A stretch of DNA of 23,606 bases from a virus, in IMG/VR virus record IMGVR_UViG_3300042549_003237, positions 1 through 23,606 of that record. The stretch is one strand, 5' to 3'. The position numbers and the translations under genes were made by a program. Below are positions 10,040 through 17,752 of the stretch, piece by piece; the stretch's first letter is position 1, and every line of letters starts with the position of its first letter. The notes beneath the pieces were generated by a model. That model was not told the DNA's origin and made no database searches. It worked only from the letters and a program-made list of their open reading frames with translations.

Positions 10040-10264
10040 ATGAAAAATACGTTAACAGATTTAAACAATCATTTATTTGCTCAAATGGAAAGATTGAGCG
10101 AAGAATCATTAAGTGTTGAGCAACTTGCTTTTGAAGCAGAACGCTCAAAAAGTTTGACAATTATTGCGCGTACAATTGTCGATAATGCGCGTTTAGTCCT
10201 TGATGCACAGACACGCATTAATGACATCCCAGAACGCAAAGAGCTACCTGCTATTTTAAAATGA
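10040..10264 (+). CDS. Small helical protein, first gene of late operon
   Basis: The 74-residue protein starts MKNTLTDLNNHLFAQMERL and reads as two or three amphipathic helices. It resembles the small conserved phage proteins usually found just before HNH and terminase genes; their function is not established. AGGAAC lies 5 nt upstream of the ATG. The stop overlaps the HNH start by ATGA (10261-10264), so both are translated together. It contains no cysteine or catalytic motif. A role as a small packaging or DNA-binding partner of the HNH protein is inferred only from position. Confidence 0.8.
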   Translation: MKNTLTDLNNHLFAQMERLSEESLSVEQLAFEAERSKSLTIIARTIVDNARLVLDAQTRINDIPERKELPAILK

Positions 10265-10704
10265 ACAGTGGACGGTTTCAGAAAGGGTTTACGCCTTGGA
10301 ACAAAGGCGTTAAAAAATCAACTGGTGAATCAAAAACTCGATTCAAAAAAGGAAATGAAACATGGAACACTCGACCATTAGGTGATGAGCATGTTGATAA
10401 TGATGGGTATATTCGTGTTAAAGTGGCTGAAACAGGAACAAAAAAAGAACGTTGGAAATTAAAGCATCGTTTGATTTATGAGCAGCATTATGGCGAAATA
10501 TCGCCAAGCATAGTTATTAGGTTTTATGATAACGACAAACAAAATTTTAATATTAAAAATTTATATGCGGTAACAAAAGGCGAAAACGCTGTTTTAAATC
10601 GTTTAAAATTTGCAAATGAACCGCTTGAATTAAAACCGACAATATTGGCAATGGTTAGAATGTGCTTAAAAGCTAAAATACCTTATAGGGTTTCCGCACA
10701 GTAG
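10261..10704 (+). CDS. HNH endonuclease, packaging-associated or homing-type
   Basis: The 147-residue protein starts with two basic NUMOD-like segments (FQKGFTPWNKGVK and RFKKGNETWN) that likely bind DNA. An HNH core follows: LKHRLIYEQHYGEIS, then IRFYDNDKQNFNIKNLYAVTKGEN. The first His (HRLIYEQ) and the Asn residues of the second half (NFNIKNL) match phage HNH proteins. An HNH gene directly before terminase is common in cos phages, where it helps the terminase cut DNA; a free-standing homing endonuclease is the other reading, and the NUMOD-like N-terminus keeps that open. Translation is coupled to the preceding gene by the ATGA overlap. Confidence 0.82.
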   Translation: MNSGRFQKGFTPWNKGVKKSTGESKTRFKKGNETWNTRPLGDEHVDNDGYIRVKVAETGTKKERWKLKHRLIYEQHYGEISPSIVIRFYDNDKQNFNIKNLYAVTKGENAVLNRLKFANEPLELKPTILAMVRMCLKAKIPYRVSAQ

Positions 10705-15183: not shown

Positions 15184-15804
15184 ATGTCAGAAGAATTAAG
15201 TATTGCAGAGCAAATTAAAGCCGCAGTTGATGAAGCAACAAGCGGACTTGCAAAGAAAAACGGTGAACTTTTAGCAGAGCTGAAAGAGGCACGAAAAGGA
15301 AAGCAAATAGATCCAGCGGAATTGGATAAACTACAAAATAAAATTGATGAGTTAGAAAACAATCTAACGGCATCACAAAAAACAATCAAAGATCAGCAAA
15401 AAGCATTTGAGCAAACTAAAGCCGCATTAGATTCAGAAAGTGGTTTCACATCTAAATTGCTTTTAGATAATGGTTTGACGGATGCACTTGTAAAGGTTGG
15501 TGTTGCTACACCATTTTTACCTGCGGTCAAAGCTATGTTATCATCACAGGCGAAAATCGCTATTGATGGCGACACACGCAAGGCAGTTATAGGCGACAAA
15601 GATTTAAGCGCGTTCGTAACAGAATGGGCGACCAGTGATGACGGCAAACATTATATTGCAGCACCACAGAATAACGGTGGTGGGGCAAGTGGTGGAAGTG
15701 GTAGCACTGGACAACAAGTTGTAAGCCGTTCAACGTTTGACAATATGTCACACCCAGAGCGGGCAAGTTTTGCAAAAAGTGGCGGCAAAGTTACAGAGCA
15801 GTAG
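15184..15804 (+). CDS. Scaffold protein
   Basis: The 206-residue protein has a long charged coiled coil (residues about 20-85, with ELLAELKEARKGKQIDPAELDK and KIDELENNLTASQK), a short globular part (LLDNGLTDALVKVGVA..) and a flexible Gly/Ser linker (GGGASGGSGSTGQQ) before a C-terminal segment. This organisation is typical of phage scaffolds that shape the prohead and then leave. It sits just before the homing endonuclease and coat genes, the normal scaffold position. An AGAGGG ribosome binding site precedes the ATG. The C-terminal segment DNMSHPERASFAKSGGKV likely binds the coat protein, by analogy to other scaffolds. Confidence 0.85.
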   Translation: MSEELSIAEQIKAAVDEATSGLAKKNGELLAELKEARKGKQIDPAELDKLQNKIDELENNLTASQKTIKDQQKAFEQTKAALDSESGFTSKLLLDNGLTDALVKVGVATPFLPAVKAMLSSQAKIAIDGDTRKAVIGDKDLSAFVTEWATSDDGKHYIAAPQNNGGGASGGSGSTGQQVVSRSTFDNMSHPERASFAKSGGKVTEQ

Positions 15805-15852
15805 TTAAGCGATTGTTTATAAAAAACAGCCGCTAGATATATCCAATTATGA

Positions 15853-15858
15853 TATAAT
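15853..15858 (+). promoter_or_regulatory. -10-like box directly before GIY-YIG hairpin
   Basis: TATAAT is followed by AACTACTCC, and no -35 is seen at the right distance. A transcript from this box would start near 15864-15866, inside the left arm of the hairpin that covers the ribosome binding site of the homing endonuclease gene. Confidence 0.45.
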
Positions 15859-15887
15859 AACTACTCCTAAACTTAGCTGGAGTAGTT
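15859..15887 (+). promoter_or_regulatory. Hairpin hiding the ribosome binding site of the homing endonuclease
   Basis: AACTACTCC (15859-15867) pairs perfectly with GGAGTAGTT (15879-15887) around an 11-nt loop. The right arm contains GGAG (15879-15882), the only good Shine-Dalgarno sequence for the ATG at 15891. A transcript that reads through from the scaffold gene would fold and block translation; a transcript that starts inside the left arm would not. Confidence 0.65.
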
Positions 15888-15890
15888 TTC

Positions 15891-16607
15891 ATGATTGGTG
15901 GAATTTATAAAATTCAAAATGTTGTTAATGGTAAATGCTATATCGGTTCAGCAAAATCATTTAAAACACGTTTTCGAAAGCATAAAAACGTTTTAGTTAA
16001 AAACGCCCATCATTCAATAAAACTTCAACGCTCATGGAATAAGCATGGCGAAGATGCTTTTATATTTCAACCTATTATTATTTGCAAACCTAAAGATTTA
16101 TTATTTTATGAACAACAAGCTATAGACGCTTATAATTCGTATTATAAAGGCTATAATGCAACTATTAGAGCAAGTAGCGCGATAGGCGTAAAACGCTCAG
16201 ACGAAACAAAAAATAAAATTAGTCTTGCCAGAAAAGGAATGAAACTATCAGATAAGCATAAAAAAGCTATATCTGATGGCGGAAAAGGAAAGATACTTAG
16301 TAATGAAACAAAATTAAAAATGCACACAGCACATATTGGCAAAAAAAAATCTGCATCTCAAATTGAAAATATGAGAAAAGCAAATTTAGGTAAAAAATAT
16401 AACAATGAAACAAAAGCAAAAATATCTGCTAGTTTAATTGGAAATACAAGAGCGTTAGGAAATGTGTTATCGGCTGAAACAAGATATAAAATGTCGGTGG
16501 CTCACAAAGGTAAAGCGCAATCACCTGAATGGGTTGAAAAGCGCATTGCATCAAGATTAGCGACATTAGCCGCTAAAAAACTTCAAATTAAAGAGGAATT
16601 ATTATGA
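15891..16607 (+). CDS. GIY-YIG homing endonuclease with NUMOD3 repeats
   Basis: The 238-residue protein has a GIY-YIG nuclease domain (residues 1-95): GIY at 4-6, YIG at 17-19, Arg27 and His31 in TRFRKH, and Glu74 in FYEQQ, all consistent with an active site. Residues about 100-235 carry several NUMOD3-type DNA-binding repeats (SDETKNKISLARKG, SNETKLKMHTAHIGKK, NNETKAKISASLIGN, SAETRYKMSVAHKGK). It resembles free-standing SegA-type enzymes and sits between scaffold and coat genes. Its stop overlaps the coat-gene start (ATGA), so the coat ribosome binding site lies inside its end. Such enzymes cut homologous sites in relatives and copy themselves in. Translation is probably controlled by the hairpin upstream. 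Confidence 0.92.
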   Translation: MIGGIYKIQNVVNGKCYIGSAKSFKTRFRKHKNVLVKNAHHSIKLQRSWNKHGEDAFIFQPIIICKPKDLLFYEQQAIDAYNSYYKGYNATIRASSAIGVKRSDETKNKISLARKGMKLSDKHKKAISDGGKGKILSNETKLKMHTAHIGKKKSASQIENMRKANLGKKYNNETKAKISASLIGNTRALGNVLSAETRYKMSVAHKGKAQSPEWVEKRIASRLATLAAKKLQIKEELL

Positions 16608-17752
16608 GTAACGTGTTAAATTCGCTAGCAGCAGACATTTACAAAGCGGCAGATGTAGTCGGTCGTGAATTAGTTGGTTTTATCCCTTCATCTACCATCA
16701 ATGGTGATGCAACAATCCGCGCTGCAAAAGGCGACACAATCCGTGCGGCATTTACTCGCACACCAAGCGTTAACACTTCATTCGCGCCTTCAATGACAAT
16801 TCCTGAAGGTACAGATCAAACCGTTGACAACAAAACAATGACGCTTGACTCTTACGCTTCAGTTCAGATTCCGTGGACTGGTGAAGATATTAAGCACGTT
16901 AACAACGGCGCAGGTTATGAAACCATTTATGGCGATCAAATTGCCCAAGCAATCCGCGCATTATGCAACAAAATTGAGCAAGATTTATTCTCAGCTGCTT
17001 ACAAAGGCGCATCACGCGCTGTAGGTTCAGCTGGCACTACACCATTCGCGTCTAACTTCGACACTATTGCGCAAGTGCGTCAAATCTTAGTTGATAACGG
17101 CTGCCCTACTGATAACCAAATCAGCTTAGTGATGAACACAGCGGCTGGCGTTAAATTACGCAACCTTGCAACACTTCAACAAGTTAACACTTCAGGAAAT
17201 GAAGCGTTACTCCGCCAAGGTACTTTGCTTGATTTGCAAGGCATCATGATTAAAGAATCGGCTGGTATTACTACGCACACAAAAGGCGGTGGTACTTCTT
17301 ACGTTACTTCTGGTTCAACTGCTGTTGGTGTTACTGACATTGCATTGGTAACAGGTAGCGGCACAGTTCTAGCTGGTGACGTTGTAACATTTGCAGCGGA
17401 TACCGTTAACAAATACGTTGTTGGTACTGGTGTTACTGCTGCTGGTACTATTTCATTAAATGCTCCAGGCGCACAAAAAGTCATTGCTACAGCAAACGCT
17501 TTAACAGTTGGCGATTCTTACACACCAAGTGTTGCTTTCCACAAATCAGCAGTTGAGTTAGGTATGCGCCCACCTGCAATGCCAAACGGTGGTGATTCTG
17601 CTGTTGACGTGATGACAGTACAAGACCCAACAAGCGGTTTAGTATTTGAAATTGCAGTTTATAAAGGTTACATGAAAACTATGCTTGAAGTACGTTGTTT
17701 GTATGGCGTAAAAGTATGGAAACCAAACCACGTTGCTACGTTGCTAGGTTAA
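16604..17752 (+). CDS. Major capsid protein, P22 coat-like
   Basis: The 382-residue protein fits the HK97-fold coat proteins of the P22 gp5 type: an N-terminal region with LAADIYKAADVVGRELVGFI, the ASVQIPWTGEDIKHV segment, a long spine helix (GDQIAQAIRALCNKIEQDLFSAAYKGA), then a Thr/Val/Gly-rich insertion (about residues 235-300, TSGSTAVGVTDIALVTGSGT onward) and a C-terminal strand (FEIAVYKGYMKTMLEVRCLYGVKVW). The insertion corresponds in place to the P22 I-domain. AGAGGAA for this gene lies inside the homing endonuclease gene, which ends in ATGA at the coat start. Assigned from sequence plus position after the scaffold gene. Confidence 0.88.
   Translation: MSNVLNSLAADIYKAADVVGRELVGFIPSSTINGDATIRAAKGDTIRAAFTRTPSVNTSFAPSMTIPEGTDQTVDNKTMTLDSYASVQIPWTGEDIKHVNNGAGYETIYGDQIAQAIRALCNKIEQDLFSAAYKGASRAVGSAGTTPFASNFDTIAQVRQILVDNGCPTDNQISLVMNTAAGVKLRNLATLQQVNTSGNEALLRQGTLLDLQGIMIKESAGITTHTKGGGTSYVTSGSTAVGVTDIALVTGSGTVLAGDVVTFAADTVNKYVVGTGVTAAGTISLNAPGAQKVIATANALTVGDSYTPSVAFHKSAVELGMRPPAMPNGGDSAVDVMTVQDPTSGLVFEIAVYKGYMKTMLEVRCLYGVKVWKPNHVATLLG

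Follow-up and report, generated by a model that had tools for sequence, protein, structure and literature searches.

The window, by which we mean the whole stretch of DNA analysed here, comprises positions 1 to 23,606 of the IMG/VR virus record IMGVR_UViG_3300042549_003237, and the feature considered below lies on its plus strand, at a junction between structural genes. The gene at 15184-15804 has no Pfam match and is called a probable scaffolding protein gene because of its position before the coat gene. It is followed by an intact gene of 238 codons (15891-16607) encoding a GIY-YIG homing endonuclease with a NUMOD3 motif and then by the major coat protein gene (P22_CoatProtein in Pfam; 16604-17752). 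The endonuclease stop codon and the coat start codon overlap by 4 nt, and the Shine-Dalgarno (SD) sequence of the coat gene (GAGG, 16593-16596) is located within the 3′ end of the endonuclease gene. Pfam search of the endonuclease detected PF01541 (2.8e-8) and PF07460 (2.2e-12) and its motif residues (G4-I-Y, Y17-I-G, R27 and E74) are invariant, so that the protein combines the GIY, YIG, Arg and Glu signature of a GIY-YIG homing endonuclease domain with NUMOD-type DNA-binding motifs. Relatives with 97-99% coat identity, including L029 and L037, have no endonuclease at the same site, which is the presence/absence pattern of a homing gene; a search of bacterial genomes revealed no relative of the enzyme. 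We considered whether the gene is carried by a group I intron and rejected this, since an Rfam search of the window gave no match to an intron or any other known RNA family and the flanking genes are intact and separate.

The leader between the scaffolding and endonuclease genes contains an extended -10 promoter element, TGATATAAT (15850-15858), with no recognisable -35 box. Its TATAAT ends at 15858 and the next base is the first of a perfect 9-bp stem, composed of a left arm, AACTACTCC (15859-15867), an 11-nt loop, TAAACTTAGCT (15868-15878), and a right arm, GGAGTAGTT (15879-15887), which contains the only SD sequence of the endonuclease gene (GGAG, 15879-15882, 8 nt before the start codon) and is followed by TTC and the ATG at 15891. 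A preliminary description of this DNA had noted the stem, the single GGAG in its right arm and the adjoining TATAAT, all of which are exact in the sequence. It overlooked an outer helix, in which CCAATTATGA (15843-15852) is predicted to pair with TCATGATTGG (15889-15898, including the start codon at 15891-15893) in read-through RNA only. The exact motif TGnTATAAT occurs once in the 23.6 kb when both strands are scanned; a general sigma-70 scan did not report the promoter because this extended -10 site has no -35 box. Judging from the layout and from folding, transcription would start 6-8 nt past the -10 box, towards the end of the left arm (15864-15866); these bases are pyrimidines in the window, which speaks against a start there.

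Of 200 dinucleotide shuffles, 199 folded less stably than the local sequence (z -3.3). When the 86-base leader was shuffled in the same way, an SD sequence fell within a stem of at least 8 bp in 27 of 100,000 shuffles, and in combination with a TATAAT whose +7 position lies in or after the left arm in 3 of 100,000. Just past the upstream gene there is also an accessory hairpin (AGCG-A-TTGTTT/AAACAG-C-CGCT, 15808-15834), which the relatives L013 and L082 retain with changed bases. The sequence AGTAGTT at the stop codon of the upstream gene (15800-15806) is complementary to the left arm, and we do not claim it as an anti-hairpin; the match may be due to chance, because the corresponding stretch in L082 lies off the aligned position.

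To compare read-through RNA with RNA initiated at the promoter, we computed the cost of opening the region from the SD sequence to the start codon, taking the promoter RNA to start 7 nt after the -10 box. For the window the predicted cost falls from 10.9 kcal/mol in read-through RNA, in which the 9-bp stem would sequester the SD sequence, to about 5.1 kcal/mol in promoter RNA, which supports the earlier proposal that a start at the usual distance, inside the left arm, would free the binding site. A start at the purine at 15863 would be less effective, leaving 5 bp of the stem and an opening cost of 7.2 kcal/mol. The same calculation gave similar drops for two T4 genes, I-TevI (14.3 to 5.1 kcal/mol) and segB (16.1 to 5.4 kcal/mol), indicating that the window behaves like these published cases.

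The layout is present in 13 close relatives among viral contigs (L001-L013, 82-100% protein identity). In L001-L012 the leader is identical to that of the window letter for letter wherever it is present (the L005 sequence begins about 56 bases before the start codon), and the encoded proteins differ by up to 13%. L013 carries T.G at one stem pair that is T-A in the window, and L081 and L082 (76-77% protein identity) carry C-G at this position together with two further wobbles, retaining 9 of 9 pairs. Across the window, L013 and L082 there are thus changes at three pairs, including the series T-A to T.G to C-G, and 27 of 27 cells are paired, although this pair-by-pair covariation rests on three sequences, too few for a shuffle control to be discriminating. 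Sliding the arms out of register reduces pairing from 100% to 37-67% in these sequences. The predicted opening cost falls from 9.5 to 4.7 kcal/mol in L013 and from 14.9 to 3.9 kcal/mol in L082, in which the -10 box is itself part of a 23-pair helix. L012 (100-830) and L013 (180-950) also contain a second GIY-YIG gene, downstream of a portal-like gene and preceded by TATAAT and a long hairpin. Its SD sequence lies outside the stem and is uncovered, which counts against the reading of such leaders as switches.

Another lineage with the gene at this scaffold/coat junction (L091, L093, L131, L132, L098 and L105; 60-65% protein identity) has wholly different arms; those of L091, L132 and L098 (TGCCGCC/GGTGGCA and TAGCCACC/GGTGGCTA) are unrelated to the arms of the window. 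TATAAT or CATAAT nevertheless abuts the left arm in L091, L093, L131, L132 and L098, and the predicted start is the first loop base or adjoins it. Promoter RNA again has the lower predicted opening cost, with drops from 7.8 to 2.8 kcal/mol in L091, 8.4 to 3.1 kcal/mol in L132 and 8.2 to 4.2 kcal/mol in L098; L105, with CATTAA, is a weak case (5.5 to 4.3 kcal/mol). The comparison with homologous enzymes in related phages that the preliminary description recommended therefore came out in its favour, since the layout is kept either with compensatory change or with unrelated arms. That divergent relatives (60-77% protein identity) share one layout with different arms implies that structure and promoter placement persist as the sequence turns over. 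Separately, the leaders of L098, L091 and L105 hold three copies of an arm (GGTGGC..GCCACC..GGTGGC or near variants). These would give the left arm two alternative partners, one upstream around the -10 box and the other at the SD sequence, and may represent competing hairpins or a DNA operator.

We consider it likely, with good though not complete confidence, that the leader acts, by way of two transcripts, as a translation switch for the free-standing homing endonuclease, an interpretation supported by comparison and computation. When RNA reads through from the structural genes upstream, the left arm together with the promoter region would fold onto the SD sequence and the start codon, so that the endonuclease would be little translated. 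RNA polymerase recognising the extended -10 box would start within or just past the left arm, yielding a short RNA that has neither this arm nor the outer helix, in which the SD sequence would be free and the enzyme made. The proposed benefit is that an enzyme encoded beside the major capsid gene would not be over-produced from abundant capsid mRNA. We infer the activity of the promoter, its start site, the protein output and this benefit from the layout, its conservation despite changed arms and the computed energies.

A hairpin and promoter device of this kind has been described for I-TevI, I-TevII, I-TevIII, T4 segB and Aeh1 mobE (PMC2988022), and a second paper concurs on the hairpins (PMC3014915). 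The principle is therefore already published for T4-type phages, free-standing enzymes (T4 segB, Aeh1 mobE) included (PMC2988022). The anatomy of the window matches that of T4 I-TevI and especially segB: the 5′ arm contains or adjoins a -10 box, the 3′ arm contains the SD sequence and the computed opening cost falls to a similar extent in promoter RNA. I-TevI, encoded in the td intron, is likewise a GIY-YIG enzyme with similar computed energies, whose ribosome binding site is held in a hairpin in read-through RNA and whose promoter lies in the 5′ arm, giving hairpin-free RNA; it differs in being intron-encoded and served by a T4 late promoter, whereas the gene in the window is free-standing, has no intron match and is preceded by a host-type extended -10 element. 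Like the window, segB is a free-standing GIY-YIG gene with a hairpin over the SD sequence and start codon and a predicted late promoter in the 5′ arm; unlike the window, it lies among tRNA genes of T4, has a promoter of the T4 late type and has leader arms that are dissimilar by eye. Aeh1 mobE, as far as the accounts in PMC2988022 and PMC3014915 go, is also a free-standing homing gene, with a ribosome binding site hairpin shown to lower translation, but encodes an HNH enzyme and lies in the ribonucleotide reductase gene of a T4-type Aeromonas phage. What is added here is the occurrence in phages with P22-type coats, the host-type extended -10 element in place of a T4 late promoter and the structural-gene read-through RNA; a literature search, with most subscription papers outside its reach, found no paper describing the device outside T4-type phages.

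The endonuclease-specific promoters of free-standing T4 genes are middle or late, none being early (PMC2988022), whereas TGATATAAT is of the host sigma-70 extended -10 type rather than of the T4 late type, TATAAATA. With a host-type promoter and with capsid genes upstream, the read-through RNA probably being late capsid mRNA, the order of timing may be the reverse of that in T4, and such a reversal is plausible. The layout of the I-TevI-like control originally proposed holds and is accompanied by a computed energy drop; the early-off, late-on timing of T4 is not simply transferable.

The inverted repeat might instead act as DNA, as an operator adjoining the promoter, bound by the endonuclease itself or by a phage repressor so as to shut off transcription of the enzyme's gene, in the manner of the published autorepression of I-TevI at its own operator (PMC2988022). 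The dyad lies directly on the promoter, and L091, L098 and L105 have an additional inverted copy (GGTGGC/GCCACC) placed around the -10 box. However, three of the changed pair types in the window, L013 and L082 are G.U, which keep RNA pairing and break DNA symmetry. The right arm invariably carries the SD sequence, the position of the start would in every case eliminate most of the left arm, and arms of different lineages bear no relation to one another. We therefore regard an operator as an unlikely explanation of the repeat, one that could nonetheless coexist with an RNA switch.

Slightly less probable still is that the hairpin is an ordinary leader structure of this position in the phage, inherited by the endonuclease, with an accidental -10 box. 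In the endonuclease-free relatives (97-99% coat identity), the coat SD sequence also lies in a strong hairpin, with opening costs of 5-17 kcal/mol in most of them (L029:3449-3503, L077:3449-3503, L092:3449-3503 and L095:2508-2562; for example GATTGCC-G-TCTAA..TTAGA-A-GGCAATC), the arms varying between lineages. Against such inheritance, the main coat hairpins have no strong -10 box, the nearest being TAAAAT in L077 and L079 only, whereas the endonuclease hairpins carry a near-consensus -10 box whose position is constant across two diverged lineages and in unrelated phages. Genomes with the endonuclease lack the left arm of the coat hairpin and have the coat SD sequence in the last part of the endonuclease gene; the median opening cost of their coat start is 5.8, compared with 8.6 without the endonuclease. 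RNAalifold returned no structure for the mixed coat leaders, the aligner having apparently put the arms of different lineages out of register. In L085, L086, L107 and L115 the stretch immediately before the coat gene, between it and the scaffold gene, holds a G+C-rich hairpin that resembles a terminator in having a T run after it.

That the stem is an intrinsic terminator or attenuator at the scaffold/coat junction, as the four-T run ending the right arm in the window might suggest, is very improbable and was rejected, since L013 and L082 have ATTATG and no T run after the stem, a terminator scan did not report this stem and the coat gene downstream must be transcribed.

Returning to the translation switch, we surveyed 63 distinct GIY-YIG genes and 765 other genes of the same loci for a promoter-like -10 box combined with a drop in opening cost of at least 4 kcal/mol. 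The layout was found in 11 of the 63 and in 9 of the 765 (Fisher p 2e-8), or in 6 of 56 against 9 of 765 when the two families of the window are left out (p 2e-4), these p-values being only indicative because L022 and L024 were already known when the criterion was set and because the 11 of 63 counts related genes separately. The majority of the surveyed GIY-YIG genes do not have the layout. L022, L024 and L193 are clear cases outside the families of the window; the L193 leader reads CCTCACCTCT-TGCTATGGTATAATATTAAT-AGAGGTGAGG before the ATG, and a near-DNA search of the phage collection with L193 found nothing. Among annotated phages inspected by eye, gp595 of Bacillus phage G has its SD sequence under a long stem whose left arm is overlapped by TTGACA, and a leader in Sinorhizobium phage phiN3 resembles that of I-TevI.

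More tentatively, and with rather less than even confidence, we suggest that the endonuclease is produced early, or steadily in small amounts, from its host-type promoter, with its synthesis shut off on the plentiful late mRNA of the capsid genes, and that free-standing homing genes in unrelated phages have reached this arrangement recurrently. The host-type promoter, the P22-type capsid operon, the turnover of the letters and the enrichment among GIY-YIG genes suggest a general rule for selfish genes that stay quiet in highly expressed operons, and the layout offers a cheap sequence signature by which such a rule could be tested.

Two other genes may be mentioned. A GIY-YIG gene at L135:3501 has a very strong hairpin over its SD sequence (opening cost 20.9 kcal/mol), within which a promoter is not recognisable. 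The window itself contains an HNH_3 endonuclease gene (10261-10704) directly before the terminase genes, which overlaps the preceding small gene by 4 nt.
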